NCBI GenBank assembly: GCA_027064585.1
Contig: JAMOPI010000037.1
Location: 1 to 64,000, forward strand
Reading direction: 5' to 3'
Source: Candidatus Desulfofervidaceae bacterium
GTDB lineage: Bacteria > Desulfobacterota > Desulfofervidia > Desulfofervidales > Desulfofervidaceae
DNA: 64,000 nt
The stretch's first letter is position 1; each line of letters starts with the position of its first letter. The notes beneath the pieces were generated by a model. That model was not told where the DNA came from. It saw only the letters and a program-made list of their open reading frames with translations, and did no database searches. The position numbers and the translations under genes were made by a program. This document shows, in pieces, positions 1 to 51,964 of this stretch.

Positions 1-1
1 A

Positions 2-298
2 ATATTAATTCCTAAGAAGCCAAGAAAGGATGCTACAGATTATCAAAAGCGTAAGGCGAAAAAGAGGTTTAGGAAGCGAGCGGGGATAGAGGCGGTGATT
101 GGGCACTTAAAGTCAGATTTTAGGCTTATTAGGAATTATCTTAGAGGGAGTATAGGGGACAGCATCAATTTGATGCTCGCAGCGGCTGCCTTTAACTTCA
201 AAAAATGGATGCGGGAGGCGGTAGGATTTTTATTTGCTCTTTTTCTCCTGATCTGGAAGGAGCAATATGAAAGGCAATTGAGCTTGGTTGAAGGCTAA
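2..298 (+). mobile_element. C-terminal part of an IS5-type transposase, cut by the window edge
   Basis: The reading frame is open from the first base to a TAA at 298, so the gene begins outside the window. The translated tail contains a run of basic residues, then a segment with IGHLKSDFRL, RNYLRG and GDSINLMLAAAAFNF, the typical C-terminal pattern of IS5-type DDE transposases, including the glutamate region of the catalytic triad (AGIEAVIGHLKSD). A GTG at 95 is an internal codon, not a start. About 20 bases after the stop lies a TTTTTCAGGGACGAC string that could be near the right end of the element, but the left end is not visible, so I cannot define the inverted repeats. I cannot tell whether the copy is intact. 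Confidence 0.75.
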
Positions 299-339
299 AA
301 CAGAGTTTTTCAGGGACGACTATGATAGCCCCTCTATTT

Positions 340-378
340 GTCACATATTTGTTAACTTTATGTCACCTAAAAGGTGAC
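340..378 (+). promoter_or_regulatory. Tandem palindromic activator sites upstream of phoU
   Basis: The proximal site at 362-378 is a perfect GTCACCT-AAA-AGGTGAC palindrome, extending to 21 bp (360-380) with the flanking AT pairs. A degenerate site of the same 7-3-7 layout (GTCACAT-ATT-TGTTAAC) lies at 340-356, its centre 22 bp upstream, which is two helical turns. The proximal centre is 60 bp upstream of the TGGCAC box at 430. The same arrangement occurs upstream of usp-sat. Binding by a bacterial enhancer-binding protein is inferred from this geometry; the NtrC-type regulator at 21750-23141 is the only candidate in the window. Confidence 0.65.
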
Positions 379-429
379 ATTTATCGGCCTTAATTTCATC
401 TTTTTAAGAGATAATCACGTATTTAATTC

Positions 430-444
430 TGGCACACTATTTGT
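430..444 (+). promoter_or_regulatory. Sigma-54 promoter for phoU and the AMP-binding gene
   Basis: TGGCAC at 430-435, five bases, then TTGT at 441-444 match the -24/-12 sigma-54 consensus (TGGCAC-N5-TTGC) with one difference. It lies about 30 bases before the phoU start and downstream of the paired palindromes, as expected for an activator-dependent promoter. Confidence 0.7.
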
Positions 445-474
445 AATGGTAAGGAAAGAGAGGTAACGAAACCC

Positions 475-1182
475 ATGTTTAGCATCTTTAAAAGACATTT
501 GTTAGACCAAAAACTTGCCTTATTGACTATGGCCGGAGAGGTAGAACGGCAACTAAACAATGTGCTTGAGGCTTTTTTTTCTCAAGACATAGAAAGGGCT
601 GAGCAGGTTATAGAAGGAGATAAACAAATTGATTTTCAGGAGGTAGAAAATGACCGCAAATGTCTATTCCTTTTAAGTCGGTATCAACCTGTTGCCCGGG
701 ATTTACGTCTCATTACAGCTATAATGCGAATTAACTCCACTTTAGAAAGGATAGGAGATGAAGCCGTACATATTGCCAAACAGGTGATTATCTTGAGCAA
801 ACGCCCCTTACTTATGTGCTGCCGGGAAGAACTGCCTGCCATGGGTTATGCCGTAAATAAAATGGTCAAAGAAGCACTTGATTCCTTTGTAAATGAAGAT
901 GTGGAATTGGCCTTAAAAGTCTGGGAGCACGATCAAGAAATAGACCAGATGTCTCAAGAAAATATGAAAAAACTATTAGACTTCATTGTTCACGAAACTC
1001 CTGCCATAAGACGAGGAGTAACACTTATCATGATTACCCATTCTTTAGAAAGAATCGGAGACCTCGCAGCGCATATTGCGGAACAAACAGTTTTCTTTGT
1101 AGAAGGTCGGATCCTACAGCATGGCTATGAGTGGGAAGAAATCAGGAAAGAATTAAATTCAGGTTTAAGGAGGGGAGCATGA
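475..1182 (+). CDS. phoU: PhoU family phosphate-signalling protein
   Basis: The 235-residue product has the two-repeat helical-bundle pattern of PhoU. Each repeat carries the acidic metal-binding motif and the LERIGD signature (STLERIGDEAVHIAKQ in the first half, HSLERIGDLAAHIAEQ in the second), and YQPVARDLR matches the conserved QPVAxDLR segment. PhoU normally links the Pst phosphate transporter to the PhoR kinase and restrains phosphate uptake in the cytoplasm. No pst or phoR genes are nearby. It is instead preceded by a sigma-54 promoter and overlaps the next gene by four bases (ATGA), so its role here may be detached from classic Pst control; that is inference. The ATG at 475 follows an AGAGAGG ribosome-binding site. 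Length is normal for the family. Confidence 0.92.
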   Translation: MFSIFKRHLLDQKLALLTMAGEVERQLNNVLEAFFSQDIERAEQVIEGDKQIDFQEVENDRKCLFLLSRYQPVARDLRLITAIMRINSTLERIGDEAVHIAKQVIILSKRPLLMCCREELPAMGYAVNKMVKEALDSFVNEDVELALKVWEHDQEIDQMSQENMKKLLDFIVHETPAIRRGVTLIMITHSLERIGDLAAHIAEQTVFFVEGRILQHGYEWEEIRKELNSGLRRGA

Positions 1183-2870
1183 GAGAAGAATTAATAAAAT
1201 ACTGGGAACAAATGGCCATTCAATTCCACTGGTTTAGACCTTGGGTTTCTATCTTCAAAGAAGGCAAGCCTGGCGGGCTGTGGTTTAAAGGGGGAGAAAC
1301 AAATATAACTTATAATGCCTTAGATGTACATGTCAATTCTCCCAAGCGAAATAAAGTAGCCCTTATCTGGGAAAGTGAAGACGGAAGGCGCATTCGTTTT
1401 ACCTATTTTGACCTATGGCGTGAAGTTATGCGTTTCAGCAATGTGTTAAAAAACTTTGGGGTAAAGAAAAGAGATCCGATCGTTATTTATATGCCCAATC
1501 TGCCTGAGGCTATAGTTGCCCTTCTAGCGGTAGCCCGTATAGGGGCCGTCCATGTACCAGTGGATATTCGGTATGGGCCCTTTGTTTTAAGGAAAATTAT
1601 CCACGAAACCGGAAGCAAAGTTCTTATTACTGCCAATGGTTATTACCGAAAAGGTAATGCCATTTGGCTTAAGCCACGCATAGAAGCGGCCTTAAGCGCC
1701 TGTGATATAGATTTTGTTATCATGGTTAAGCGACTGAAGGAAGAAGAAGTTAGGGAGAGCTTTTTCTGGTATCACGAGCTAATGGAAGGGCAAAAAACAG
1801 AATCTGATCCAGCCGAAGTAGAAGCCAATGAGCCTTTAGGGATCCTTTATACTCCAAATCACAAAGGCAGGATGGTCGGTATCACTTATCCTCATGGTGG
1901 CTATATGGTAGGCGTGGCCAAGAGTATGAAAGAGGTTTTTGGCCTGAGAGAAACAGATGTGGTCTGGTGGGCAAGTGAGTTGGGAAATATCATCGGCCAG
2001 AGCTATATGGTCTATGGCCCCTTGCTCAACGGATCCACTACTGTGCTTTACGAAGGGCATCTTTTATATCCAGGTCCAGAAAGGACCTGGTCAATTATTC
2101 ACAAATACGGGGTAACCCTCTTTGGTGCTTACCCTTCTCGTTTGCGAGTCTTGATGCCTTACGGCGAAAAACCTGTCCGCTGGTTGGATATCAGCACTTT
2201 AAGACATCTTTATTTGAGTGGTGAAGCCCTGGATGAACCCTTAACTCACTGGCTCCAAGAAACAGTGACCAAACGAGCCAATATTGTCAATCTCTGGATC
2301 ACTGCAGAGACAGGGGTATTTAGTCTTATGGCTAAGGGAAACAGATTAGGCAATTCTTATACTCCTTTACCATTTTTACAAAAGGTGTTTCCTGTCTTTA
2401 ATCCTGTAGTGGTTACTGTAGAAGGTAACACCCTTCCACCTGATCAAAAAGGTATCCTTGGTTTTAGTGAACCCCTTCCTAGCATGTTTGCTAATGTGTG
2501 GAATGATGAAAGGGCCTTTTTGGAATACTGGGCGCCCAATGGTATCTTCCTCAGTAAGGATTTTGCCATAAAAGACAAAAAGGGACTTATCAAATTATCA
2601 GGACATAGAAGTAGTAGGGTGATCAACATTGGTGGTTTGATCGTGCCGGCCGAGTTGATTGAACTGGCAATGAAAAGGCACAGCGCAGTTATTGAGGCTA
2701 CGGCTAGGGCCATGCCGGATTCTATTAAAGGTCAGGTGGCAGAAGTTGAAATACGAGTTAAAGAGGGGATTGAACGTACTCATGATCTACGGAGTGAACT
2801 TCTTCAGTTTGCTAAGACCGAGCTTGGGCCTGGAGTTATTATCAGGCAGATTACCTTTGAAAGGCATTAA
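1179..2870 (+). CDS. [23 protein letters not shown] AMP-binding protein lacking catalytic motifs
   Basis: The ATG at 1179 overlaps the phoU stop and follows AAGGAGG, giving 563 residues. The sequence tracks acetyl-CoA synthetase: IYMPNLPEAIVALLAVARIGAVH in the N-terminal domain, YPGPERTWSIIHKYGVTLF, NLWITAETG, and the late SGHRSSRVINIGG segment. Two features are wrong for an enzyme. The ATP-binding loop normally read as YTSGTTGKPKG is YTPNHKGRMVGI here, without the Ser/Thr run or the lysine. The protein also stops after the GPGVIIRQI segment, so the C-terminal catalytic lysine motif (PKTRSGK) is absent; true Acs is about 650 residues. Co-transcription with phoU from a sigma-54 promoter suggests a regulatory or ligand-sensing role, which is inference. 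Fold assignment is confident; activity is doubtful. Confidence 0.8.
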   Translation: MREELIKYWEQMAIQFHWFRPWVSIFKEGKPGGLWFKGGETNITYNALDVHVNSPKRNKVALIWESEDGRRIRFTYFDLWREVMRFSNVLKNFGVKKRDPIVIYMPNLPEAIVALLAVARIGAVHVPVDIRYGPFVLRKIIHETGSKVLITANGYYRKGNAIWLKPRIEAALSACDIDFVIMVKRLKEEEVRESFFWYHELMEGQKTESDPAEVEANEPLGILYTPNHKGRMVGITYPHGGYMVGVAKSMKEVFGLRETDVVWWASELGNIIGQSYMVYGPLLNGSTTVLYEGHLLYPGPERTWSIIHKYGVTLFGAYPSRLRVLMPYGEKPVRWLDISTLRHLYLSGEALDEPLTHWLQETVTKRANIVNLWITAETGVFSLMAKGNRLGNSYTPLPFLQKVFPVFNPVVVTVEGNTLPPDQKGILGFSEPLPSMFANVWNDERAFLEYWAPNGIFLSKDFAIKDKKGLIKLSGHRSSRVINIGGLIVPAELIELAMKRHSAVIEATARAMPDSIKGQVAEVEIRVKEGIERTHDLRSELLQFAKTELGPGVIIRQITFERH

Positions 2871-2963
2871 AAGGTTGAGGGTGGCTGCTCCAAATATCTT
2901 TTGATAATTTTCTCTTTTTAGGCTATTTTGGTCTTAATAAATAAAAGTGAGGTAGCTGTAAGG

Positions 2964-4868
2964 ATGGATTTTTTCAGAAAGTTACGTTTTCAGACAAAAT
3001 TGATCTTTTTTTCCTTGTTGCTAGTAGTTTTGCCTCTTTTAACCCTGGCGATACTTAGCTATCAGGGAGCAAAAAGAGGATTTATTGAAGTTGTAAAAGG
3101 TGATCTGAAAACAATGGTAAAACAAGAGGCAAAAAGGATTCAAGAAGGTTTTGACAATGTGGAAAATCAGGGACTAAAGGCTAAAGTGCTGATCTTACAG
3201 CTTCGTCGTCAGGAAAAAAATTTTTTGTTATACGCCGCTAAAGAAGGCTATGAAAAATATGAACAAAAAATTAATAAGCATCTAAGTGAAGTTAGGGCCT
3301 TTATTGCTGAAGCAAAGCGGCTGGGCTTGGATACCAGTAAGGTAGAAGCAACTTTGGAAGGATACATAAAAAATTTAAACCGCATAAAGAACTATCTTAA
3401 AACGCACGGATCGTTGGATGGAGTTGACCAATGGCCCATGAGACTGGCTGGAAGAAAGCTAGATAAGGTGTTTGCAAATCTGGTAAGGCAATATGCTGAG
3501 GCAAAGACCCTGGCCAATATAAGAAACTCCCTTTTGTCCCAAAAAATCGGCAAAACAGGCTATTTTTATGTAATGGATACAAAGGGAAACCTAATCATTC
3601 ATCCTCAAACTGGAGCTGAAAATCTTTCTACATACAAATTTGTGCAGCAAATACTTCAGACAAAGCAGGGCTTTATTTCCTACAACTGGAAGGGTAAACA
3701 TGTGCTGGCTGCTTATGACTACCTTCCAGCAAAAAAATGGATTGTTGTAGCTAATGGCTATACTGACGAGTTGCTAGAGACCCCTCTTTTTGTGGTTAAA
3801 AGAAATACTCTCTTCATCACCCTAGGCTTTATGCTAGCCGCAACGGCTATTTCTTACCTCTTTAGCCGTGGTATCAATAGGGTGATAGAAGATTTGGTGG
3901 AAGACACCAGTTTGGTAGCTCAGGGAGATTTAACTGTGTCTATAAAAAACAAACGTCAGGATGAATTTGGGAAATTGGCCCAAAACTTTAATAACATGGT
4001 CTTGCAATTGCGAAGATTGGTAGCCCAAATAACTACCGTTGCTGATCAGATAAATATGGCCTCTTCTGAAGTGGCTGCCTCCAGTCAAAGGCTGGCTGAG
4101 GGAGCAAGTGAACAGGCGGCATCAATAGAGGAGACTTCTTCCTCTATAGAAGAGATTGCCTCTATGGCCAAGCAGAATGCAGACAATGCCCTACAGACCG
4201 ACCAATTAATGAAACAAACCCAGCAAATTACCAGAGAAACCAAGGTATCTATGGAAGAACTTAGGGAGTCTATGGAAGATATGGCCAAATTATCTGAAGA
4301 AACCCAAAAGATTGTTAGGGGAATTGATGAAATTGCCTTTCAGACCAACCTTTTGGCCCTTAACGCCGCGGTAGAAGCGGCCAGGGCCGGAGAAGCAGGA
4401 CAGGGTTTTGCCGTGGTAGCCGATGAGGTGAGGAATCTGGCTCAAAGAACGGCTGCCGCTGCCAAAGATACTGCACAACTTATTGAACAAACAGTTAAAG
4501 GCATTCATACCAATCTGGATTTGGTCAAAAAGGTTGATAGCGATTTTAGCAAGGTGGAACAATCGGCTGCCAGGGTAGGCAGTTTGGTGGCTGAAATCAG
4601 CGCTGCTTCTCAAGAGCAAACTCAAGGCATCTCTCAGGTTAATACAGCTGTTTCCCAAATGGATAAGGCAACCCAGCAGGTAGCCTCTAATGCCGAAGAA
4701 ATGGCCTCGGCCAGTGAAGAGCTCAAAAATCAGGCAGCCAATTTGGTAGAACTTATCCGTCATTTCAAATTTGAAAAAGAAACAAAATATATCCCTGAAG
4801 TAGATTTTAGCACCCAACTGCAAAAGACATTTCCTGTATTACCGCAAAGATCAACAGGTAAAGTGTGA
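2964..4868 (+). CDS. Methyl-accepting chemotaxis protein with Cache-type sensor
   Basis: I start the gene at ATG 2964 (MDFFRKLRF), preceded by GTGAGGT, rather than at an upstream TTG at 2928; this gives 634 residues. A first membrane segment lies at about residues 12-34. The extracytoplasmic part contains a Cache module ([21 protein letters not shown]). A second membrane segment near residues 275-295 is followed by a HAMP domain ([15 protein letters not shown]). The cytoplasmic signalling hairpin is classic: [20 protein letters not shown], then [20 protein letters not shown]. The protein would sense a small molecule outside the membrane and control a CheA kinase; no che genes are in the window. 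The ligand cannot be predicted from what I see. Confidence 0.93.
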
Positions 4869-4925
4869 AAGTATAAGTGGGTTGATGAGAATTTTTCTGT
4901 AAAAACAAACAGAAATAGGAGCGAT

Positions 4926-6401
4926 ATGAGAAAGGTTTATAAAACAGAATCCGGGCGTTTATTGGTTATTTTTCTGCTTATTATCTCCTGTGTAGCCATT
5001 ACCTATTATTATCACTTTATCCTTTATACTACGGTAGTCTTTTCGCATTTCTTTTATGTGCCAATTGCTATTTCCTGTTTATGGTGGAAAAGACGGGGCA
5101 TCTGGGTAGCTATTTTGCTGGGTATGTGGTTAATCACTTCTTCCCTTCTAGCAGGTATGAGTGCCACTCTTTTAGAGAATATTTTGCGCTCGGGGATGTT
5201 TATTCTGGTTGCTCTGGTCATCAGCATACTCAGGGAACGAAGTCAGTATATAGGAAAAGAACTGCATGATATAATAGAAGGCATTCCCATCGCCCTTTTT
5301 GTAATTGACAAAAATCACAACGTTACCTACTGGAATAAGGCCTGCGAGATCTTGACCGGTCTTTCAGCCAAAGAGATAATTGGAACCAAAAAACACTGGA
5401 TGTCTCTTTATAAAAGAAAAAGGCCTACTTTAGCAGATCTGATTGTGGATAATATACCCAGGCCAGATGAGGTTAAAAACAGGGATTATCCTAAATGTAA
5501 ATGGTGGAAGTCACGGGTAATAGAGTGGGCATATAAAGGAGAGGGCTTTTTCCCTGAAGCAGGAAAAGAAGGCCGTTGGTTACACTTAACTGCTGCCCCT
5601 ATTAAAGATACATATGGGCAAATCATCGGAGCGGTAGAAACCCTAGAAGATATAACCAGAATAAAAAATACAGAAACACAGCTTTTTCAGATACAAAAAA
5701 TGGACTCTCTTGGACGCTTGGCTGCCGGTATAGCGCATGAATTTAATAATGTCCTCCATGTTATCCAGGGTAATATAGAAATTGCCCTTTTAGATACGAA
5801 ACCAGAAAGCAAGCTCCATACCTGTTTGACACGTATTCAGAAGGCGGCTTCACAGGCAGCCGGGCTTGTTCACCAGCTTCTTATATTTTTACAAAAGGCA
5901 CCTATTAAAACCAAAGTTTTTAATCTAAACCAAACGGTAATAGAAATAAGGAACATGCTAAAGCACATCTTAAGGAAAGACATCTTTCTTGAATTAAAGC
6001 TGGAAGAAGACCTATGGAAAATTGAAGGCAACCCCAACATGATAGAACAGGTAATCCTGAATCTGGTTGGTAATGCACAAGATGCCATGCCTAATGGGGG
6101 CAAAGTTGTAATTAAGACCGAAAATATTCTGAACGCCACAAAAAATGGAGTTAAAAGACATGTGTGCCTCTCGGTTAAAGATACAGGCATAGGCATGAGT
6201 GAAGAAGTTAAGGAACATCTATTTGAACCCTTTTTTACCACCAAGGAGAAAGGGAAGGGGACTGGTCTGGGACTCTCGGTAGTCTATGGGATTGTTAAGC
6301 AACACGGGGGGTGGATTGAGGTGGAAAGTGCTCCTGGGAAGGGTGCTACCTTTTACATTTATTTTCCTGCTTCATCAAAGATAGAAGAAAATATCCTGTA
6401 A
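4926..6401 (+). CDS. Membrane-anchored PAS histidine kinase
   Basis: The 491-residue protein has three or four hydrophobic segments in residues 10-102, a PAS domain from about 112 to 245 (IPIALFVIDKNHNVTYWNKA), a dimerisation domain with the phospho-acceptor His271 in GIAHEFNN, and a HATPase domain with the N box (NLVGNAQDAMPNGG), G1 box (DTGIGM), F box (FEPFFTTK) and G2 box (GTGLGL). This architecture usually carries a C-terminal receiver domain. Here the kinase ends cleanly, and receiver-like sequence follows at once in another frame (6389-6625), so this was probably a hybrid kinase that lost its receiver. RBS AGGAG precedes the ATG. The partner regulator is unknown. Confidence 0.9.
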   Translation: MRKVYKTESGRLLVIFLLIISCVAITYYYHFILYTTVVFSHFFYVPIAISCLWWKRRGIWVAILLGMWLITSSLLAGMSATLLENILRSGMFILVALVISILRERSQYIGKELHDIIEGIPIALFVIDKNHNVTYWNKACEILTGLSAKEIIGTKKHWMSLYKRKRPTLADLIVDNIPRPDEVKNRDYPKCKWWKSRVIEWAYKGEGFFPEAGKEGRWLHLTAAPIKDTYGQIIGAVETLEDITRIKNTETQLFQIQKMDSLGRLAAGIAHEFNNVLHVIQGNIEIALLDTKPESKLHTCLTRIQKAASQAAGLVHQLLIFLQKAPIKTKVFNLNQTVIEIRNMLKHILRKDIFLELKLEEDLWKIEGNPNMIEQVILNLVGNAQDAMPNGGKVVIKTENILNATKNGVKRHVCLSVKDTGIGMSEEVKEHLFEPFFTTKEKGKGTGLGLSVVYGIVKQHGGWIEVESAPGKGATFYIYFPASSKIEENIL

Positions 6402-6625
6402 CCACAGTGACCAATACACAAGAGGCCTTTAAAGACTTCAAAAAATTTGATCTGATTTTAGGTGATATAATTCTCTCTGATGGCAATGGTCTAAAATTGC
6501 TGGCCAAACAGATTTTACTAAATGGCATGCCAGTTGCGCTTACGAGTAAGTATAAAGACTATTTCTTTTTGAAGAAACGTTTCAACATTCCAAGTTGTTT
6601 AAAACTATCGCTAATGCAAATATAA
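6389..6625 (+). pseudogene. Decayed receiver domain left behind the histidine kinase
   Basis: In the frame different from the kinase, 6389-6625 reads YPVTTVTNTQEAFKDF, then FDLILGDIILSDGNGLKLL, then VALTSKYKD. This matches the middle of a response-regulator receiver of the type fused to PAS hybrid kinases (FDLIxSDVxLPDxNGLKL, then LTSGYxD). The N-terminal acidic pair and the final lysine motif are missing, and no ribosome-binding site precedes it. I read it as the remnant of the kinase's own receiver after a deletion and frameshift. Independent translation from the GTG at 6407 is possible but unsupported. Confidence 0.6.
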
Positions 6626-6643
6626 AGTATCAGGAGGGAAAAA

Positions 6644-7048
6644 ATGAAGGTAGAAGAAATAATGAATAAAAAGCTTCAAACGATAGAGCCTGACGCTACG
6701 GTATATGACGCCATAGAACGACTGGTGGATAAGAGGATCAGGTCTTTAGTAGTAAAACCTGAAGATGAAGTAGATGTTTACGGCGTTATTACTGTAAGAG
6801 ATATTGTTTTTAAGGTAATTAATAAAGCTCTGGACATTAAAAAGATAAAGGTTAAAGAAATTGCCTCAAAGCCATTGGTAAGTGTAAGTAAGGATACAGA
6901 TATAAAAACATTAATAAATTTGATGGCCACATCTAACATTGCCAGGGTATTTGTATTTGAAGAAGGAGAAATTATTGGTGTTGTGTCTTTATTAGATATT
7001 TTGTCTGCTTCAATAATAGAAAGGGCAAAAGAAAGACAATGCCTTTAA
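6644..7048 (+). CDS. Tandem CBS-domain protein
   Basis: The 134-residue protein is two CBS motifs and nothing else: the first opens with VEEIMNKKLQTIEPDATVYDAIE and the second with VKEIASKPLVSVSKDTDIKTLI, each ending in a hydrophobic GVxxxxD strand (YGVITVRDI and IGVVSLLDI). Such stand-alone Bateman modules bind adenine nucleotides and usually regulate a partner. AGGAGG sits a few bases before the ATG. No partner can be named. It is isolated between the kinase remnant and a convergent gene. Confidence 0.9.
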   Translation: MKVEEIMNKKLQTIEPDATVYDAIERLVDKRIRSLVVKPEDEVDVYGVITVRDIVFKVINKALDIKKIKVKEIASKPLVSVSKDTDIKTLINLMATSNIARVFVFEEGEIIGVVSLLDILSASIIERAKERQCL

Positions 7049-7152
7049 TTTTAAGAAAAACACAGAATCTGTGGCAATTTGTTGAATTTCAAATTTCATC
7101 CAGGTTTAAAAGGCCGATTTTTAAATATCACGAAAAATGCGAAGAATGGTTT

Positions 7153-7983
7153 TTAATTAAGATTTATAAAATAAGACAAAATATATCTTATTGCTGGAAT
7201 GAAAATGAGGAATCCCAAAATGATTTTTATGGCCCTTTCAGGTGTATGCCTTTGCAATCTTGCACCCGTATACATTCCTAACATGCCACCTATTCCAAAA
7301 AGTATGGCTACTTTAAGGGAAGGAGGATAACCAAAATGGGCATAAGACAGAACTCCACAGATAGAGGTAACAAAGGTGCCTGTTAAAGTAGCGCTGGCAA
7401 TGGCATGGACTGGCAAACCAAATACGCAGATAAGAAGGGGCGAAAGCAAGGCCCCACCGCCAATTCCATACGCGCCACTGATGGTGCTTGTAACCAGGAC
7501 GACAAAGAATATTGACACTGGAGAAAAAGAAAAAAACTCCTTGCCAAAGCAAAAATGCACTTTAAATAAAGAAATCTTTTTTATCCGGACATTGGTAACA
7601 GGTATCTTTCGTTTGCCTTTGTTGAAAAAGAGTCTCAATCCCAAAAGGCACAGAACGATTCCTACAAAGAGTTTAAAGGCTCGTGGATTGAGCAAAAAAG
7701 TAGTGTGTAGAAAAGTGCCTATAAAGACGCCTGGAATAGCACCACACACGATTGGTAATACTAAGGGGAGAATAAATCTTTTTTCTTTTCTGAACCAATA
7801 GATGGCGCTTGGTATAGCTATTATATTGTAAAGCAGATTGGTGGCACTGGCAACCGGTGAGGTGATGCCTAAAAGGCTTATTTGAACAGGTAGCAGAAGA
7901 AATGCCCCTGAAACTCCTGCTTGTGAGGTAAGACTAGCAATGATAAAGGCGATCAGGGGTAATATAAAAAGGCGAAAATCCAC
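7153..7983 (-). CDS. TauE/SafE-family membrane permease
   Basis: The protein has about eight hydrophobic segments in two related halves, each with the family's glycine-rich signature: SQAGVSGAFLLLPVQISLLG near the N-terminus and TISGAYGIGGGALLSPLLICVFG in the second half. The family exports or takes up sulfite, sulfoacetate and other sulfur or organic anions. I prefer the GTG start at 7983, because the upstream TTG at 8019 lies inside a strong GGCCGCC hairpin that probably belongs to the end of the preceding porin gene; the product is then about 276 residues. Start choice is uncertain since neither codon has a good ribosome-binding site. It is downstream of the porin on the same strand, so a periplasm-spanning anion route is conceivable. 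Confidence 0.85.
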   Translation of the reverse strand: MDFRLFILPLIAFIIASLTSQAGVSGAFLLLPVQISLLGITSPVASATNLLYNIIAIPSAIYWFRKEKRFILPLVLPIVCGAIPGVFIGTFLHTTFLLNPRAFKLFVGIVLCLLGLRLFFNKGKRKIPVTNVRIKKISLFKVHFCFGKEFFSFSPVSIFFVVLVTSTISGAYGIGGGALLSPLLICVFGLPVHAIASATLTGTFVTSICGVLSYAHFGYPPSLKVAILFGIGGMLGMYTGARLQRHTPERAIKIILGFLIFIPAIRYILSYFINLN

Positions 7984-7998
7984 TTTGTTTCTTTTGTA

Positions 7999-8017
7999 GG
8001 CCGCCAGAAAGGCGGCC
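7999..8017 (-). terminator. GC-rich hairpin after the porin gene
   Basis: GGCCGCC and GGCGGCC pair perfectly around a 5-base loop just beyond the porin stop codon. No T-tract follows on the minus strand, so it may stabilise the message end or reduce readthrough rather than act as a full intrinsic terminator. Confidence 0.4.
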
Positions 8018-8027
8018 AAAAAATTCT

Positions 8028-9308
8028 TTAGAATTTAAATTGAAAGTAAGTGTAGAAGTCAGTCATATTGCGTTGTTTGTCATGGGCCAGAAGATATTCT
8101 TTTGCACCATCAGTATACCATACATGATCAACACCAACCGCTAGCCAGGCAGAATATCCTTTGATGAAGTAATTAAGAGCGATTGAGATCCGATTAGAAG
8201 TAAGATCTTTATTATTATAAGCATCATCTGCGTTCATTTGTTCAAATCTCGCTCCAATAGCAGGCCTTCCGTAACCAACAAACTTATTATAAAGGAATTG
8301 CCCTGCAACCCACCAGTATTGACTATCTTTTTTCTTATTACCATATTCTCCATTATGATAATCATAATGGGAGTCTTTTGAGTAAATGAATCCCCATTGT
8401 AACATAGGGACATATCTATGATCTTTACCAAGTCTTTTTTCCCAAATACCATCAATGGCAAACATGTCATTGTCAAGATCATCCCATATCTCTTCTCTGG
8501 AGTATCCTATCCCGATGTTAAATACATCCCTTTTCCCAAGATAAGAATCTCCTCTTGTCCCTTTAATGGACTTTTCGGGTTTATATCCCAACCAAGTAGG
8601 GGTAAAGACAAGCCTTACTGTGCGTCTAACTCCCTTATATCCCTCTCCTTTTTTCCCCTTTGGGTTCCAATCGGATGGGTTGTTATTGGGCTGATTGAAT
8701 AAACCTAGGTGATATTCAAGCATCCCATCAAAAAGGTATCCAAAGACCGTAACGCCTGGATGTCTGATTTGAAGACAGGTTTCTTTTGTGTTAAGATATT
8801 TATTGACCTTACCCTTAAATACCCCATGGATATCATATCTATAGAAATAGTCAGTAGGAATGAGTTTTTTGTAATCAGACCTTTGGTGATATCTGCTAAC
8901 AGGTATACGCTGCCTGCCAAATCTTATCATAAATTCAGGACGAAATACAAGATTTACCCCAGTCTCTTTCATATAAGCTTTAGTACTATCATCTCTTTTT
9001 TTCCCACTTAATTTATATGGCTTGTAATAACACTCCCATTGGGTAAAGAACTGAACCAATTTGTTAATCTGACCTTTAACATAAAACTCTGCCTCTGTCA
9101 TTTCAAAATAGTTCTGACGATAATCTACGTCTTTACTTCTTTTATCCATATTAAAATAAAACAACTGCCCCCTTATAGCAAAATCAGCCCACTTCTCCTT
9201 AGAAAACTGGATCCGATACCCATAGGCCAGATTTACCCCTAAAAAGATAATCATAAACAACAAACTAACAAACCTAACAAACCTAAAAAACCTAAAAAAC
9301 CGCTTCAT
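8028..9308 (-). CDS. Outer-membrane beta-barrel porin-like protein
   Basis: The 426-residue product starts with a signal peptide: an arginine/phenylalanine-rich n-region, a hydrophobic core (LLFMIIFLGVNLA) and a likely cleavage after AYG. The mature part alternates polar and aromatic residues, lacks long hydrophobic helices and ends in FYTYFQFKF, the C-terminal phenylalanine signal used by the Bam machinery. Segments such as RQNYFEMTEAEFYVKGQI and FRPEFMIRFGRQRIPVSRY are like the trimeric phosphate-type or general porins annotated in sulfate reducers. AGGAGG precedes the ATG. The signal peptide is built on a 9-bp DNA repeat (see the repeat entry). The transported solute is unknown. Confidence 0.8.
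   Translation of the reverse strand: MKRFFRFFRFVRFVSLLFMIIFLGVNLAYGYRIQFSKEKWADFAIRGQLFYFNMDKRSKDVDYRQNYFEMTEAEFYVKGQINKLVQFFTQWECYYKPYKLSGKKRDDSTKAYMKETGVNLVFRPEFMIRFGRQRIPVSRYHQRSDYKKLIPTDYFYRYDIHGVFKGKVNKYLNTKETCLQIRHPGVTVFGYLFDGMLEYHLGLFNQPNNNPSDWNPKGKKGEGYKGVRRTVRLVFTPTWLGYKPEKSIKGTRGDSYLGKRDVFNIGIGYSREEIWDDLDNDMFAIDGIWEKRLGKDHRYVPMLQWGFIYSKDSHYDYHNGEYGNKKKDSQYWWVAGQFLYNKFVGYGRPAIGARFEQMNADDAYNNKDLTSNRISIALNYFIKGYSAWLAVGVDHVWYTDGAKEYLLAHDKQRNMTDFYTYFQFKF
9265..9302 (-). repeat. Four-unit 9-bp tandem repeat inside the porin signal peptide
   Basis: On the coding strand the unit AGGTTTTTT or AGGTTTGTT is repeated four times immediately after the start codon, encoding RFFRFFRFVRFV. The unit is a multiple of three, so copy-number change would alter the n-region length without a frameshift. 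Confidence 0.7.
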
Positions 9309-9572
9309 TTTCCCCCTCCTGAAACAATTTTTTTTTTAAATTAAACCTCTTTGCGAGCAGAAGGCAAAAAACATGCCATAATAAATAGAATCAAATAGTT
9401 CCCAAATCATCATTTGCCTGCATCTGTAAAAAACATAAGTGCGTTTAAAATAAACTTAAATACACTCACAGGGCAAAAGCAATGATAAAATAAAAAGGGA
9501 TTAAAGTAAAGCAAGCAATTTTGTCATTTATTTTACCCCTTGTGCTCATGCTTAATGGAGGAGGTAGGGTTT

Positions 9573-9611
9573 GTCATCTAATAATTGACTAATAGTCACT
9601 TAAAAAGTGAC
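9573..9611 (+). promoter_or_regulatory. Tandem palindromic activator sites upstream of usp-sat
   Basis: The proximal site 9595-9611 is GTCACTT-AAA-AAGTGAC, a perfect 7-bp palindrome with the same 3-base centre as the phoU site. A weaker copy, GTCATCT-AAT-AATTGAC, is at 9573-9589 with its centre again 22 bp upstream. The proximal centre is 61 bp from TGGCAC at 9664 (60 bp at phoU). The rest of the 456-bp gap 9309-9764 is AT-rich and I see no gene in it. Confidence 0.65.
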
Positions 9612-9663
9612 AGTTTTTCAATTCTTATCCTTTTTTAAGCAGTGTATCTCTACATTTTCTATT

Positions 9664-9678
9664 TGGCACAGAATTTGA
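9664..9678 (+). promoter_or_regulatory. Sigma-54 promoter of the usp-sat operon
   Basis: TGGCAC (9664-9669), five bases, and TTGA (9675-9678) match the -24/-12 consensus. Transcription would begin near 9690 and leave a leader of about 75 bases before the usp start at 9765. Confidence 0.7.
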
Positions 9679-9764
9679 TTATAACTAACTCCAAAAGAGG
9701 AAGTGGGTGAAATGACACTGTTATTGGTTGTTAGGAGTAGATTAAAAATAAGGAGGTGAATAAA

Positions 9765-10184
9765 ATGAAGTTTTTGCTTGCAGTAGATGGCTCAGAACAT
9801 GCGCTAAAGGCAGCTAAAGCGGCTTTACGCTTATTAAAAGATTGTGGCGGTGAAGTGATATTGACCTCGGTAGTTCAGGATATCGCTCCTATGGGAATTT
9901 GGGAAATGGGTCATCAGGAAAAGGCCTTAAAAAGTTTACATGCGAGGGCACGGGAAGCAGTAGAGGAAGCGAAGAAACTATTAAAAGCAGAAGGAGTGAG
10001 TGTAAGAACAACTCTGATATCAACTGGTGAACCTGCAGATGAAATCATCAGAATGGCAAAGAAAGAAGCAGTGGATGATAGTGATTGGCAGTCGGGGGCT
10101 GACGGGTTTGCCCCAGTATTTGCTGGGCAGTGTTGCCCACAAAAAGTAACCCACGCACATTGTTCTGTTTTAGTAATCAAATAA
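9765..10184 (+). CDS. Universal stress protein with two compensating frameshifts
   Basis: ATG 9765 follows AGGAGGTG. Residues 1 to about 104 are a normal UspA start (KFLLAVDGSEHALKAAKAA, then EIIRMAKKEAVD), and the end (KVTHAHCSVLVIK) is also normal. Between about 10075 and 10145 the reading frame yields unrelated residues, while the neighbouring frame reads IVIGSRGLTGLPQYLLGSVAHK, precisely the conserved nucleotide-binding block (GxxG-x9-GS). So the gene carries a shift near 10074-10078 and a restoring one in the AAAAA run at 10141-10145. As read, the ATP-binding motif is destroyed. Sequencing error, a real double mutation or recoding are all possible. It is the first gene of the sat operon. 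Confidence 0.8.
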   Translation: MKFLLAVDGSEHALKAAKAALRLLKDCGGEVILTSVVQDIAPMGIWEMGHQEKALKSLHARAREAVEEAKKLLKAEGVSVRTTLISTGEPADEIIRMAKKEAVDDSDWQSGADGFAPVFAGQCCPQKVTHAHCSVLVIK

Positions 10185-10206: not shown

Positions 10207-11487
10207 ATGATGGATTTTATTGGTCATGGTGGAAAAGAAATTAAAGAAAGAATTTTAAGTCCTGGAGAAGCAAAGAAGAAGATTAAAAATCTAGTATCTG
10301 TAGAAATTTCCGGGCGTATTGCCAGGGAGTGTATTGACCTGGGCTATGGTTTCTTTACACCCCTGGAAGGCTTTATGGGAAAGGCAGATGTAGATAGTGT
10401 GTGCAAAAAGATGAGCCTCACAGATGGTACTATCTGGCCCATTCCCATCGTTTTTGACATTTCCTCCCAGGAGATTAAAGAAAAGGGCATTAAGGTAGGA
10501 GATACTATTGTTCTTACTCACACAGGCAATCCCCTAGCTATCCTTGAGGTAGAAGAAATCTTTTCTTATGACAAAGATGAAATGGCCCAGGCAGTATTGG
10601 GGACTACAGACACCAAACACCCAGGTGTGCGCATGATAGGACGGATGCAGGATACCTTTATTGGGGGCAAGGTTACTCTTGTAAATAAGCCCCAATTTAA
10701 TCCTCCTTTTGACCGTTTCTTCTATACTCCACGCCAATTAAGAAAAGAATTTAAAAAACGAGGTTGGGTAAGAATTGTGGCCCATCAAACTAGAAATGTG
10801 CCTCATACTGGTCATGAGTGGTTGATGAAAGGGGCGTGGTTCTGTGCACACGGAGATGCTCCAGTAATAGGTAATAAAGATGAAATAAAGCTAGGCACAG
10901 GAGTGCTTGTCAACTGTATTATTGGCCCTAAACGCACTGGTGACTATATTGACGAAGCTATTCTTTTGGCGCATCAGGCCTTACACGATGGACGGTATTT
11001 CAGAGATGATGTGCACATGGTTTCTATCACTTGTTGGGATATGCGTTATGCCGGACCTAAAGAGGCTATTTTTCACGCCATCTTAAGGACAAATCTGGGG
11101 TGCACCCACCATATGTTTGGACGTGATCATGCTGGTGTTGGTGATTATTATGGCACCTATGATGCCCATCGCATTTTTGACCAGTTACCACCAGGTAGTC
11201 TAAAGATTAAGCCCGTGCGGGTGCTAGAGTGGTGGTATTGTCCGGTATGTGCTGAGGTAACCTATTCCGGCCTCTGTGGACACACTAAAGAACGTCAGAA
11301 ATTCAGTGGAACACTCATTAGAAGCATTATTAAAGATGGCGTTAAGCCAACCAGAGTAATCATGAGGCCAGAGGTTTTTGATGTCGTAATGGAGTGTGCA
11401 GAAAAATATGGGTTTGGTTCTCCGTTTTGCACAGAGGAATATCTGCTTAAACGGAACCCTGTGTTTGTCGTACCACCTTTAGGATAA
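10207..11487 (+). CDS. sat: Sulfate adenylyltransferase (ATP sulfurylase)
   Basis: This 426-residue enzyme makes adenosine phosphosulfate and pyrophosphate from ATP and sulfate, the first cytoplasmic step of dissimilatory sulfate reduction. The active-site motif QTRNVPHTGHEWLMKGA contains the HxxH pair, and GRDHAGVGDYYGTYDA is the second nucleotide-binding motif. A CPVC-x8-C-x2-H cluster near residues 345-360 matches the zinc-type site of bacterial and archaeal dissimilatory enzymes. There is no APS-kinase fusion. Two ATGs in tandem open the gene; AGAGG lies upstream. It is 22 bases after usp and probably driven by the sigma-54 promoter at 9664. The aprBA and dsr genes are not in the window. 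Confidence 0.97.
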   Translation: MMDFIGHGGKEIKERILSPGEAKKKIKNLVSVEISGRIARECIDLGYGFFTPLEGFMGKADVDSVCKKMSLTDGTIWPIPIVFDISSQEIKEKGIKVGDTIVLTHTGNPLAILEVEEIFSYDKDEMAQAVLGTTDTKHPGVRMIGRMQDTFIGGKVTLVNKPQFNPPFDRFFYTPRQLRKEFKKRGWVRIVAHQTRNVPHTGHEWLMKGAWFCAHGDAPVIGNKDEIKLGTGVLVNCIIGPKRTGDYIDEAILLAHQALHDGRYFRDDVHMVSITCWDMRYAGPKEAIFHAILRTNLGCTHHMFGRDHAGVGDYYGTYDAHRIFDQLPPGSLKIKPVRVLEWWYCPVCAEVTYSGLCGHTKERQKFSGTLIRSIIKDGVKPTRVIMRPEVFDVVMECAEKYGFGSPFCTEEYLLKRNPVFVVPPLG

Positions 11488-11524: not shown

Positions 11525-11830
11525 ATGTTAGAAACCTATCCTATTAACATCTGGATTAATGAAGAACGGTTTGAAAAGTTAAAAGCCGCCAATCTTGCCG
11601 ATATGGCGGTGGATAGACTGGGGGGAATGAAAGTCATCCAGGTGCAGTGCACCGAAGAACAAAAGGACAAGATTTTAAAACATTTTCCCATGGCCAAGTT
11701 TGACACGGCAACAACAAAGAGTATTGAACTTTTACCTAGAGAGGTAAAAGACAAAATTTTTGATATTGCCATTAAGCTGAAAAGTATAGGGCCAGATGTA
11801 ATAGATGAATTTTTTAAATCTCTGGATTGA
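11525..11830 (+). CDS. Small conserved-looking protein downstream of sat, function unknown
   Basis: AAAGGAGG precedes the ATG by a normal distance, and the frame is closed by TGA at 11830. The 101-residue product is soluble, mixed alpha/beta by eye, with no cysteine pair or other metal motif, signal peptide or membrane segment; it ends in a helical stretch (VKDKIFDIAIKLKSIGPDVIDEFFKSLD). I do not recognise the family. Its position 37 bases after sat and before a sulfur-oxyanion exporter suggests a role around sulfate activation, by context only. Confidence 0.75.
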   Translation: MLETYPINIWINEERFEKLKAANLADMAVDRLGGMKVIQVQCTEEQKDKILKHFPMAKFDTATTKSIELLPREVKDKIFDIAIKLKSIGPDVIDEFFKSLD

Positions 11831-12085: not shown

Positions 12086-13372
12086 ATGAAGCTTAAATCA
12101 ATTGGCAAATTTATTGGTGAAAGTTTGATGCAGGCAGGGGTGGCACAGGCTCAATGGGAATACGAAATGAGTCAGAATATCTTCAAGAGCAAAAAAAGGA
12201 TGATTATCCTGACTCTTTTAGCCATCTTACCCGTTATAGTAGGCATTGCCTTTGCTGACCAATTACCAGCGATTCTGGGCGGGAAAAAGGCCTATGCCCC
12301 TGCGTTTTTTGCCCCAAAGGTTTTAGGTGTAGCCATTGGCATTGGTCTGATGGCTGGTCTTATTACGGGTTGCATCGGCGCTGGAGGAGGTTTTGTTATC
12401 ACGCCGGCCCTGATGAGTGCGGGTGTTAAAGGCATTATGGCCGTAGGGACAGATTTGTTTCATATCTTTGCCAAGGCCATAATGGGAACAGTTATGCACA
12501 AAAAATTGGGAAACGTTTCTGTTAAACTGGCAGTTGCTTTTGTGGTGGGTTCCTTCCTGGGTGTGAATGTTGGAGCGGCCATCAATAAGGCCATTTATGC
12601 TAAAAGCCCAGTGATGAGTGATGCCTTTATCAGTCTTGTTTATGTTTTTTTGCTGGGTTTTTTAGGATTTTACGCCCTTATTGACTTTTTGAAGCTGAGA
12701 AAGGCTACGGCCAGTAGTGTTGAAGTAAGTGCCCATGGAGGTGGAGGTAAAGAAAAACCAAAAACAGTTACAGGACTGGCTACAACTTTGCAATCGGTTC
12801 CGCTCCCTCCCAGGATTAGTTTTGACGAAGACATTGTGCCCGGAGGACGGAAGATATGGGCCGGTTTTGTTACAGGTTGCGGTTTTATTGTCGGTTTTGT
12901 CGCCGCGATTATGGGTGTAGGTGGTGGCTTTCTTACCTTTCCGATGTTTGTTTACATCCTGGGGGTTTCTTCCTTTACCACCGTTGGAACAGATATTTTG
13001 CAGATTATCTTTACCGCTGGTTATGCCTCTATTTTTAAATATGCCATTTACGGATTTGTCTTTTACACCCTGGCTATGGGATTGTTAATCGGGTCATTAC
13101 TTGGCATTCAAATTGGAGCCCTGACGACAAAGGTTGTGCCTGGTCTTTATATCAGGGGATTTTATGCCCTAGCCATCATTGCTGGTTTTTTTAACCGATT
13201 ACTAGCCCTGCCCGGCAAATTGGCTGGCATTGGGGTTATACATGTCTCTAAGGCGACCGCAAATGCCCTGAACACAATAGGGGTCATTGGCTTTTTTGTG
13301 TTGATCGGTTTTTTTGGCCTGTGGGTCTTCAGTAAATTTATTGCTAATCTAAATACGTTAAAGGAGGAATAA
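12086..13372 (+). CDS. Large TauE/SafE-type sulfur-oxyanion permease
   Basis: The 428-residue membrane protein begins with a roughly 35-residue soluble segment, then a hydrophobic helix and two TauE halves. The signature segments are LITGCIGAGGGFVITPALMSAGVKGIMAVGTDLF and FVAAIMGVGGGFLTFPMFVYILGVSSFTTVGTD, both with the glycine-rich turn. A hydrophilic loop at about residues 210-245 separates the halves. Long TauE proteins beside sat or apr genes are common in sulfate reducers and are thought to move sulfate or sulfite; direction and substrate are not shown by sequence. AAAGGAGGTAGGAG precedes the ATG. The gene ends two bases before its partner at 13374. Confidence 0.88.
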   Translation: MKLKSIGKFIGESLMQAGVAQAQWEYEMSQNIFKSKKRMIILTLLAILPVIVGIAFADQLPAILGGKKAYAPAFFAPKVLGVAIGIGLMAGLITGCIGAGGGFVITPALMSAGVKGIMAVGTDLFHIFAKAIMGTVMHKKLGNVSVKLAVAFVVGSFLGVNVGAAINKAIYAKSPVMSDAFISLVYVFLLGFLGFYALIDFLKLRKATASSVEVSAHGGGGKEKPKTVTGLATTLQSVPLPPRISFDEDIVPGGRKIWAGFVTGCGFIVGFVAAIMGVGGGFLTFPMFVYILGVSSFTTVGTDILQIIFTAGYASIFKYAIYGFVFYTLAMGLLIGSLLGIQIGALTTKVVPGLYIRGFYALAIIAGFFNRLLALPGKLAGIGVIHVSKATANALNTIGVIGFFVLIGFFGLWVFSKFIANLNTLKEE

Positions 13373-14130: not shown

Positions 14131-14525
14131 ATGGTAAAAAGGCAAAATATAAGTGAGTGGTTTGATATGCAGAAGGATTTTATTTTACTTGGTCTTATTG
14201 TAGGTATTCTCGCCAGTTTTACCGGGCTTGGAGGTGGATTTTTGATGGTGCCTCTACTACTTTTTCTTGGCTATGATGCTCAGAAGTCTGTAGGAACCTC
14301 ATTTATGGCAATTGTGGTTATTTCTATTTCGGCCTTATTTGCCCATAGTAAATTGAAAAATATAGATTATATAGGGTAGGGATATTGCTTGGTATTGGCG
14401 GTATAATTGGTGCCCAAATAGGCGCAAGATTGTTAGAACATGTGCCTACGGATACATTTAAGAAAATATTTGCTATTTTCCTCTTTTTGCTGGCCCTACG
14501 GATGTTTTTAATAGAAAAGAGCTAA
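14131..14525 (+). pseudogene. Half-length TauE/SafE gene broken by a frameshift
   Basis: The first frame (14131-14379) gives DFILLGLIVGILASFTGLGGGFLMVPLLLFLG, a TauE signature half, and runs into TAG at 14377. From 14379 another frame continues in perfect register with the family: GILLGIGGIIGAQIGARLLE and so on to TAA at 14525. Joined, they give a half-size TauE of about 130 residues, a size known for paired or homodimeric DUF81 proteins. The shift is between about 14374 and 14382. A sequencing error at the GGGTAGGGA stretch would restore it. Confidence 0.8.
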
Positions 14526-14527
14526 CG

Positions 14528-17077
14528 ATGTTTAAAAAAATCTTGGCATTTTTCAGAAGAAATCCCGAAGGGAAAACTATTCAAAAATCTTTTAAAGAAA
14601 TCTACACGCATTTTCAAGACCTTCTTTCTAAAAATACCAGGGCTTTATCCTTGATGGCGGATATAGAAGAAAAGCTTTCTGGACAGTATTTGTTTGACTT
14701 TCAATACATCAATAAAACTTACCAAGATTTAAATCAGACCATTGCGGACATTATCTGGCATTTAAATGAAATAGGTGGACAAAAATACACCTCTCTCTAT
14801 AAAGTATTTCAGAAAATTTCTCAGGAGATAGAAAGTATTATTTCCCCTAAAATAGAAATTCCTGTAACTCCTTATGTGTTACCCTTAAAAGAGGTAAAAA
14901 AAGATGCTGCGCCTGCTGTAGGTCATAAAATGGCCAATTTGGGTGAGATAAAAAACAGCTTAGGTCTGAATGTCCCAGATGGCTTTGTCATTACAGCTTA
15001 TGCCTATCTTCAATTTGTTACCCATAATCGTTTAGAAGAGTTGATTAAAGAAAGACTGGCCGCCCTTCCTGCTAAAACCAATTATGAATTGCTTAAAGAA
15101 ACAGGAGAATGTCTCCAGAAGAAGATCTTGGAGGCTTCTTTACCAAAAGAAATGGAAGAAGCAATCTATAAGGCATGTGAAGATTTATTTGCTAATAAGC
15201 AGGTTTCTTTGGCCATGCGTAGCAGTGCCCTTGCTGAAGATGCATCTTTTAGCTTCGCTGGACAGTATAAGTCTTTTCTTAATGTCTTTTACCCACATGT
15301 TCTTCTATGCTATAAGAAAATTGTAGCTAGCCAGTTTACTCCTGAAGCCATATTTTACTGGAAGAACAAGGGGTTAAACCTAACCGAGATGGCCATGAGC
15401 GTTGGGTGCATGAAAATGGTGAATGCTAAAGTTAGTGGGGTAATGTTTTCTGCTAACCCTGAAGGTGAAAAAAACGAAATTCTCATTAATGCTGTTTGGG
15501 GATTGGGTCCTTACGCCGTTAATGGCCCAGTTACACCAGATACCTACATTGTTGAGAAGGATACCTTAACGATAAAAGAAAAAAAAGTTGTGCCTAAAGA
15601 TGTCATGCTAACTATTTCTCCACAAGGAGGTACAAAGGAAGTTAGTGTGCCAGAGGAGTGGAGAAATAAGCCCTGTTTGAATGAATATCAAATTATTACT
15701 CTCGCCAGACAGGTCTTACTCTTAGAAAGGCACTTTGAAGGCAACCAGGACATTGAATGGGCAATGGATAAAGAAGATACTATTTATATATTGCAAACAA
15801 GACCTCTGCATTATTTACGCAAGTTTAAGCCAAACTGGGAGAAGAGTGCCTCCCATGAAGTCTTAATCTCTGAGGGCACAATTGCTTCCTTTGGTGTAGG
15901 AGCGGGTAAGGTTTATTTTGTTAAAAATAAAGAAGCATTAAAAGATTTCCCTGAAGGGGCAGTTTTAGTCGCTGAACACTCTTCTCCTCGTTTTGCCACC
16001 GTTATGCCAAAGGCTGCCGCTGTGGTAACAGACTTTGGCAGTGCTACTGGTCACATGGCCATTTTGGCTAGGGAGTATAATGTGCCAACATTGGTAGATA
16101 CAAAAATTGCTACCAAGGTTTTAAGGCCAGGGATGGAAGTAACAGTGGATGCATATCATGCTAAAGTCTATAAGGGTGTCATAAAAGAAATAGTAAAACA
16201 GGCCGAAAAAGAAGATGTTTTTATTAAAGAGACGCCTTTTTTTAAACGGCTGGAGAAAATGGCTCAGAAGATTGTTCCGCTTAATCTTATGGACCCTAAA
16301 GAAGGAAATTTTCACTCCAAGTTTTGTAAAACCTATCATGACATTACCCGTTTTGCCCACGAAATGGCCATGAAAGAAATGTTTTCCCTTATGGATATGG
16401 TTAAAATGGGGGGCGCCCAAATTGTGCGGGTAAAAACAAAAGTGCCTCTTAATCTATATGTGTTAGACCTAGGAGATGGGCTTAAAGAAAATAAAAAAGA
16501 AAGAGTATATACCGAAGAAGATATCCAGAGTGTTCCTTTGTCTGCTTTGCTCAAGGGGATGTCACATCCTGAGATTACCTGGGTTCGACCTGTCCCAAAG
16601 GGCTTGAAAGGTATTTCTGGTTTTTTTTCAGTTATGTATGAATCCACGCTTACAAAACACGAAGATTTCTGGGATAAAACTTATGCCATTATTTCCAAGG
16701 AATATCTAAATTTTAGCTGCAAGTTGGGTTATCATTACAGTAATGTGGAATCTTATTGTAGCCCAGATATAAATCGCAATTATATTTTTTTCACCTTTGT
16801 GGGTGGTGGGGCTGATATTACAAGACGACGGCGGCGGGTGAGATTCATCGGCACTGTATTGGTAAAACTGGGCTTTAAGATAGAAATTAAGGCTGATTTA
16901 ATTAAGGCCCAATTTCGTAAGTATGATGAGGCCATCACGGCCGAAAAATTAGACTATCTGGGCCGCTTAATGGGTTGCTCACAACAGTTGGATATGAGCC
17001 TTTCAGATGATTTTATGGTGGATAGATGTATTGAGGCCTTTTTAAGTGCTAACTACAGCTTTTTTGCCGGGAAATAA
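14528..17077 (+). CDS. PEP-synthase-like phosphotransferase without the PEP barrel
   Basis: The 849-residue protein starts with about 125 residues of helical unknown sequence. An ATP-grasp, pyruvate-phosphate-dikinase N-terminal domain follows (VGHKMANLGEIK; LAMRSSALAEDASFSFAGQY; QDIEWAMDKEDTIYILQTRPL), then a swivelling phosphohistidine domain with DFGSATGHMAILAREY and His509. The last 290 residues do not look like the PEP/pyruvate-binding TIM barrel of real PEP synthase and I do not recognise them. The ATP-grasp plus His arrangement implies phosphoryl transfer from ATP, with AMP and phosphate or pyrophosphate released, to an unknown acceptor. It follows the TauE pseudogene by two bases and precedes the kinase array. 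Confidence 0.85.
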   Translation: MFKKILAFFRRNPEGKTIQKSFKEIYTHFQDLLSKNTRALSLMADIEEKLSGQYLFDFQYINKTYQDLNQTIADIIWHLNEIGGQKYTSLYKVFQKISQEIESIISPKIEIPVTPYVLPLKEVKKDAAPAVGHKMANLGEIKNSLGLNVPDGFVITAYAYLQFVTHNRLEELIKERLAALPAKTNYELLKETGECLQKKILEASLPKEMEEAIYKACEDLFANKQVSLAMRSSALAEDASFSFAGQYKSFLNVFYPHVLLCYKKIVASQFTPEAIFYWKNKGLNLTEMAMSVGCMKMVNAKVSGVMFSANPEGEKNEILINAVWGLGPYAVNGPVTPDTYIVEKDTLTIKEKKVVPKDVMLTISPQGGTKEVSVPEEWRNKPCLNEYQIITLARQVLLLERHFEGNQDIEWAMDKEDTIYILQTRPLHYLRKFKPNWEKSASHEVLISEGTIASFGVGAGKVYFVKNKEALKDFPEGAVLVAEHSSPRFATVMPKAAAVVTDFGSATGHMAILAREYNVPTLVDTKIATKVLRPGMEVTVDAYHAKVYKGVIKEIVKQAEKEDVFIKETPFFKRLEKMAQKIVPLNLMDPKEGNFHSKFCKTYHDITRFAHEMAMKEMFSLMDMVKMGGAQIVRVKTKVPLNLYVLDLGDGLKENKKERVYTEEDIQSVPLSALLKGMSHPEITWVRPVPKGLKGISGFFSVMYESTLTKHEDFWDKTYAIISKEYLNFSCKLGYHYSNVESYCSPDINRNYIFFTFVGGGADITRRRRRVRFIGTVLVKLGFKIEIKADLIKAQFRKYDEAITAEKLDYLGRLMGCSQQLDMSLSDDFMVDRCIEAFLSANYSFFAGK

Positions 17078-35712: not shown

Positions 35713-35743
35713 GTGCACCTAGCCTTTAAAGCAATCACTTAGT

Positions 35744-44546: not shown

Positions 44547-44614
44547 CTTTTCCCCTTCACATTTAATCTCATTTCTGTTAATCTCTCACCACAAAACTTA
44601 TGGGAGGAAAGCTA

Positions 44615-51947: not shown

Positions 51948-51964
51948 ATCTATTTTTGCTTGTT

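Follow-up and report, generated by a model that had tools for sequence, protein, structure and literature searches.

Two promoters in the window, the 64,000-nucleotide stretch analyzed here, share a tandem pair of palindromes placed at a conserved distance from a sigma-54-type -24/-12 element. The 71-kb contig C37 begins with the window; it belongs to the 1.92 Mb genome (G000) of a thermophilic, sulfate-reducing Candidatus Desulfofervidaceae bacterium. These pairs are probably sigma-54 enhancers, with the NtrC-type bEBP encoded at 21750-23141 as their most likely activator, driving the phoU promoter (P1), the usp-sat promoter (P2) and possibly a third, divergent promoter (P3). They very probably mark a genuine, if ordinary, small regulon of genes for sulfur and acetate functions.

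Tandem palindromes at P1 and P2

The primary palindrome at P1, GTCACCTAAAAGGTGAC, occupies positions 362-378 (center 370), and TGGCAC follows at 430, 60 bp on. Its counterpart at P2, GTCACTTAAAAAGTGAC, occupies 9595-9611 (center 9603), 61 bp before the TGGCAC at 9664, so that both primary palindromes end 51-52 bp 5' of TGGCAC-N5-TTG. Exactly 22 bp 5' of each primary site lies a weaker copy, predicted to be the upstream enhancer site (GTCACATATTTGTTAAC at 340-356 for P1 and GTCATCTAATAATTGAC at 9573-9589 for P2). The motif, the spacing and the 22-bp duplication had all been claimed in the original prediction, and every element is present where it was placed, correct to the base.

The promoter elements read TGGCAC-ACTAT-TTG(T) at P1 (430-443, plus strand) and TGGCAC-AGAAT-TTG(A) at P2 (9664-9677, plus strand). 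The -24 box is a perfect TGGCAC in both, and the spacing is sigma-54-like. At -12 they have TTGT and TTGA, respectively, in place of TTGC, which leaves the conserved GC of the -12 incomplete at both promoters, a weakness to which the original prediction gave no emphasis. In a set of eight promoters from the window and from related genomes (see below), TGGCAY was found in 8 of 8 and the -24/-12 spacing was right in all; the -12 is TTGC in the P1 and ligase promoters of the same-genus genome G003 and in the TauE promoter of HotSeep-1. RpoN is encoded in G000 on contig C31 (PF04552, E=1e-64).

A third sigma-54-like element (P3), TGGCATGTTTTTTGCC, lies on the minus strand at 9363-9378 and precedes the divergent gene at 8028-9308, with the P2 palindromes ~195-235 bp upstream of it. 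As these palindromes stand between the divergent P2 and P3, they may serve both promoters. A P3-like element, TGGCATGATTTTTGCC, also precedes the HotSeep-1 orthologue of the divergent gene (L137:16491).

A genome-wide pattern search found the perfect palindrome GTCAC-N7-GTGAC in only two copies in the 1,923,821 bases of G000, namely the primary sites of P1 and P2. Requiring TGGC at 35-65 bp returned the same two sites alone. In 16 simulated genomes (order-3 Markov, same base statistics, 30.8 Mb in all), the bare palindrome averaged 0.3 copies per genome and the strict composite never appeared. A scan for the palindrome upstream of a sigma-54 box had been proposed in the original prediction, and P1 and P2 are its sole matches in G000. 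More lenient composite patterns yielded no further convincing promoter in the genome; the extra matches had low matrix scores and no correctly placed -24/-12 pair. The motif was derived from the P1 and P2 sites themselves, and we therefore regard its recurrence in relatives, scored with a matrix fixed beforehand, as stronger evidence than its uniqueness in the genome. Genome uniqueness, simulation and recurrence together bear out the view that chance agreement between P1 and P2 is very unlikely.

Recent duplication was considered as the source of this likeness and rejected. The flanks of P1 and P2 are unalike and the spacers only weakly alike (0.59 versus 0.50 when shuffled; 10 of 500 shuffles reach this value), and the likeness would reflect an old duplication at most.

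Could the palindromes instead be terminator hairpins, or stem from a dispersed repeat, and not bind a protein at all? The palindrome at 9595-9611 has TTTTT after it and a terminator-like score, and the phoU palindrome has a 15-bp core in common with a repeat of ~40 copies. However, no gene reads into P2 from upstream, where the neighboring gene is divergent, and the T tract is absent at phoU, at P1 of G003 and at the HotSeep-1 sites. The flanks of the dispersed repeat do not match those of the phoU palindrome, and its window copies lack a sigma-54 box. Since this explanation also leaves the tandem 22-bp spacing and the fixed distance to TGGCAY unexplained, we consider it highly improbable. An Rfam scan of the window gave no match.

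The dispersed intergenic element is itself ~200-300 bp long, with window copies at ~35560-35720, ~44390-44560 and ~51790-51950 and ~40 copies genome-wide (L155-L184). Its hairpin, TTTTTCACCTTTTAGGTGAAAGRYGTTTTTTAAAAAA, hardly varies between copies, and it ends in ...AATCACGGATTTTGGG, in many cases with a TTGAC-like box behind; it has no Rfam match in the window.

A PhoB box, which consists of direct, not inverted, repeats, governs phoU in many bacteria. The phoU site can be read as three 11-bp direct repeats, TGTCAC-N5-TGTTAAC-N4-TGTCAC, and resembles a PhoB box in its period and its TGTCA units, so that P1 could belong to the phosphate regulon and its likeness to the sat site be partly fortuitous. 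No other array of three TGTNA at an 11-bp period occurs in the loci scanned, contig C9 carries PhoB- and PhoR-like genes beside pst, and PhoB targets in D. vulgaris include PhoU (PMC3333781). Nevertheless, such direct repeats are absent from the sat site and from the sites of the relatives, the middle repeat being the one missing at sat and in G003, the primary element has a perfect inverted symmetry that PhoB does not need, and the spacing to TGGCAC is conserved. We therefore think it improbable that P1 is simply a PhoB-controlled promoter, while dual control by PhoB and a sigma-54 activator is possible. In our reading, none of the PhoB box, terminator and dispersed-repeat explanations would account for the common geometry together with its conservation.

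Recurrence in relatives of the class

The comparison set comprised six genomes of the class (G000-G005), among them G003, from the same genus, and G002, taken here to be HotSeep-1, Candidatus Desulfofervidus auxilii. We built a 19-bp matrix from the two window sites alone and applied it to the other genomes. In G003, the five best-scoring 19-mers in 20 kb all fall in three sigma-54-like promoters. The first, with an identical tandem pair (L136:8376-8416), precedes a degraded phoU and then usp-sat; both palindromes and the -24/-12 element of P2 are 100% identical in G003. The second, the counterpart of P1, has GTCTCTTAAAAAGTGAC at the same distance from a promoter element with a -12 of TTGC, and stands before a degraded acetate-CoA-ligase gene and then a chemoreceptor gene; its weaker upstream copy is 71% identical to that of P1 in the window. 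The third has two weaker copies 34 bp apart and a -12 of TTGC, before an intact acetate-CoA ligase gene just 3' of the bEBP.

In HotSeep-1, GTATCCTAAAAAATGAC occurs at the same -69 position before TGGCATGAGTTTTGC, ahead of a TauE-hypothetical-kinase-bEBP gene series, and 2 of 2000 shuffles reach its score. A weak copy lies 22 bp upstream of this primary site. The score is 14.8, and a higher-scoring site (17.8) occurs elsewhere in the same 20 kb, at L137:6555. G005 has two weak sites between kinase-bEBP and TauE-hypothetical-sat, which are differently placed (-89/-57), and G001 has a shorter 16-bp variant at -56 before kinase-bEBP that is not significant by the matrix. Every supported motif site is found no more than ~22 kb from an orthologous kinase/NtrC-type pair. 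Brocadiales relatives of the bEBP (~48% identical, with an ERQYLQRM helix) were also considered and set aside, as no such motif was found near their sigma-54-like boxes.

Comparison of P1 between G000 and G003 shows where conservation is concentrated. Identity reaches 82% in the palindrome and 79% in the -24/-12 element but falls to 55% in the spacer (47% on average for shuffles) and to the random level downstream of the promoter. In both genomes P1 stands before an acetate-CoA-ligase and chemoreceptor pair. Sites kept amid a nearly randomized spacer read as a footprint of selection.

Two further features of these loci were noted. The phoU that separates P2 from usp-sat in G003 is decayed, as is the second usp there (L136:8523-8790 and 9340-9757), and G000 has neither phoU nor the first usp at the corresponding place behind P2. 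By eye, transposase C-terminal remnants of the same type lie just 5' of the P1 enhancer in both genomes (window 1-300 in G000 and L136:5750-5850 in G003), in opposite orientations.

The linked regulator and its candidate targets

The sensor kinase gene (19718-21778, plus strand; dCache, PAS, HisKA and HATPase domains) adjoins the bEBP gene (21750-23141, plus strand) in all six genomes, although in G004 the kinase is partial, at a contig end, and the kinase is the likely partner of the bEBP. Orthologues of the bEBP occur in the other five genomes, each beside a kinase, with 67-94% identity. The protein has a receiver domain (PF00072) whose D54 is conserved in all six orthologues, and an AAA+ domain (PF00158, E=1e-70) with a GAFSGA loop, a variant listed as compatible with activation (PMC4641369). 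Its only cysteines are Cys200 and Cys439, and none lies in the receiver domain. The C-terminus is HTH-like by alignment (GNVSRAAEVCGLKRQYFYRLMK; ..KRQYFYRLMK..), with no Pfam HTH match at 1e-3. The putative recognition helix KRQY[FL][YH]RL[MIL]K is conserved among the orthologues and unlike that of the other eight strong bEBPs of G000.

The bEBP of G004 (L125, G004:C60), a genome of another genus, is 94% identical to that of the window, against 77% for the same-genus copy, whereas the sole Sat of G004 is 47% identical to the window Sat. This mismatch may point to gene transfer or to faulty binning.

As bEBPs can regulate genes far from their own loci, it is conceivable that the sites are sigma-54 enhancers for another of the eight remaining bEBPs (the genome encodes nine strong ones) and that the neighboring kinase/bEBP pair is a bystander. 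Against this, the motif lies near orthologues of this particular bEBP in G000, G003, HotSeep-1 and, weakly, G005, and directly before the operon encoding it in HotSeep-1, and no other bEBP is linked to the motif in the loci read. We consider another activator unlikely. The bEBP at 21750-23141 is the best candidate because, in other genomes too, the motif keeps company with its orthologues. Its proposed role as activator is thus strengthened by genomic linkage, which is clear in G003 and HotSeep-1 and weak in G005.

With this bEBP as the preferred activator, we propose the following mechanism. The adjacent kinase would activate the bEBP by phosphorylation, and the phosphorylated dimer would bind the two 17-bp palindromes, whose 22-bp offset of two helical turns would place them on the same face of the DNA. 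A bEBP ring assembled at the enhancer would then contact sigma-54 RNA polymerase at the TGGCAY-N5-TTG ~52 bp downstream. P1 would drive phoU, the acetate-CoA-ligase gene and the chemoreceptor gene, as a presumed operon. P2 would drive usp, sat, the DUF6955 gene and TauE, perhaps reading through to the kinase and the bEBP, and P3 may drive the divergent 426-aa gene and TauE pair from the same palindromes. All genes from usp through the bEBP lie in one direction; the main gaps precede the TauE gene at 12086 (255 bp) and the gene at 14528 (~450 bp). Autoregulation of the bEBP is thus possible in G000 and would be more direct in HotSeep-1.

Behind P1 lie a phoU paralogue of the PhoU family (475-1182, plus strand; PF01895, TIGR02135 above cut-off), an acetate--CoA-ligase-like AMP-binding enzyme (PF00501 and PF16177, NF001208 below its cut-off; listed as 1131-2870, plus strand, with a true start probably slightly downstream) and a chemoreceptor (MCP with Cache, 2928-4868, plus strand) whose G003 relative is likewise behind a motif-bearing promoter. 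Behind P2 are a universal stress protein (9756-10184; PF00582), an accessory sulfate adenylyltransferase (Sat, 10207-11487; over the cut-offs of both TIGR00339 and NF003166, with the catalytic motifs QTRNVPH..H and GRDHAG), a DUF6955 protein (11525-11830; PF22271) and a TauE/SafE-type exporter (12086-13372; PF01925), all on the plus strand.

P3 precedes an uncharacterized 426-aa protein (8028-9308, minus strand), followed by another TauE/SafE-type exporter (7153-8019, minus strand; PF01925). The 426-aa protein has no Pfam or NCBIfam match and has 81-82% identical orthologues in HotSeep-1 and G005; three of the six genomes carry its gene, always ~10-15 kb or less from the bEBP. In G000 (9378, minus strand) and HotSeep-1 the gene stands behind a sigma-54-like box of its own, and in G005 it is located 3' of sat, with the same orientation.

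Two other features of the sat cluster were noted. By eye, an apparently frameshifted second TauE lies at 14131-14526, between a 235-aa ORF and a PPDK_N gene, and G003 has a TauE fragment at the matching place. The adjacent 849-aa protein (14528-17077) has PEP-synthase-like domains and falls below the curated PEP synthase cut-offs.

The window Sat is an accessory copy, as a second Sat, 47% identical to it, is encoded on contig C33; the window type is otherwise found in G003 alone. Likewise, the window PhoU is an extra copy, as a canonical pst-phoU-phoB-phoR-like operon is present on contig C9, as judged from gene order and N-terminal sequences. Sat joins TauE and the kinase-bEBP pair in G000, G003 and G005, and the conserved core of the regulon is the TauE/SafE-type exporter with the kinase/bEBP rather than Sat or PhoU. 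The original prediction had placed sulfate activation and a phoU/AMP-binding pair in one regulon: the shared enhancer fits this, but with accessory Sat and PhoU copies around a different core. From the exporters, our guess is that the signal is a sulfur oxyanion such as sulfite.

Comparison with known regulons

The Desulfofervidia comprise thermophilic partners of methane- and alkane-oxidizing archaea, and their relatives. For this uncultivated class of sulfate reducers, which includes HotSeep-1, the analysis provides a testable prediction of regulator, site and target. It also suggests that a single two-component signal governs acetate activation, the export of sulfur oxyanions and an accessory enzyme of sulfate activation. 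A bolder and more doubtful idea is that the Desulfofervidia possess a dedicated sigma-54 two-component regulon of their own, in which an extra PhoU is induced along with acetate activation, TauE-type exporters of sulfur oxyanions and an accessory ATP sulfurylase; this would be an undescribed response for sulfite or pyrophosphate/energy homeostasis. A literature search for this regulon found nothing relevant, and no sigma-54 regulon for Desulfofervidia, including HotSeep-1, was found in the literature searched.

The kind of system is nevertheless well known, being two-component, sigma-54-dependent, with a tandem palindromic enhancer and a small local regulon, and the mechanism is standard. In D. 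vulgaris, the sites of sigma-54 response-regulator bEBPs are mostly within 100 bp of the promoter, the bEBP genes are often beside their targets, and a regulon typically comprises one to four operons (Rajeev 2011, PMC3333781; Kazakov 2015, PMC4641369). The arrangement predicted for the window resembles this in all three respects. The grouped half-sites in D. vulgaris are TGT/ACA with 9, 11 or 12 bp between them, whereas P1 has TGT-N13-ACA. No listed D. vulgaris regulon combines sat, TauE, usp and acetate-CoA ligase, and the main text of PMC4641369 contains neither 'sulfate adenylyltransferase', 'phoU' or 'universal stress' nor a GTCAC motif.

A second comparison is with FisR of Cupriavidus and Acinetobacter, a sigma-54 bEBP that adjoins and activates a sulfur operon including a TauE exporter (PMC7315123). 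FisR responds to sulfide and controls SQR and persulfide dioxygenase, and the Cupriavidus type has cysteines in its regulatory domain (PMC7315123). Like FisR, the window bEBP stands beside a sulfur operon with a TauE exporter; unlike FisR, it has a receiver domain without cysteine and a neighboring sensor kinase.
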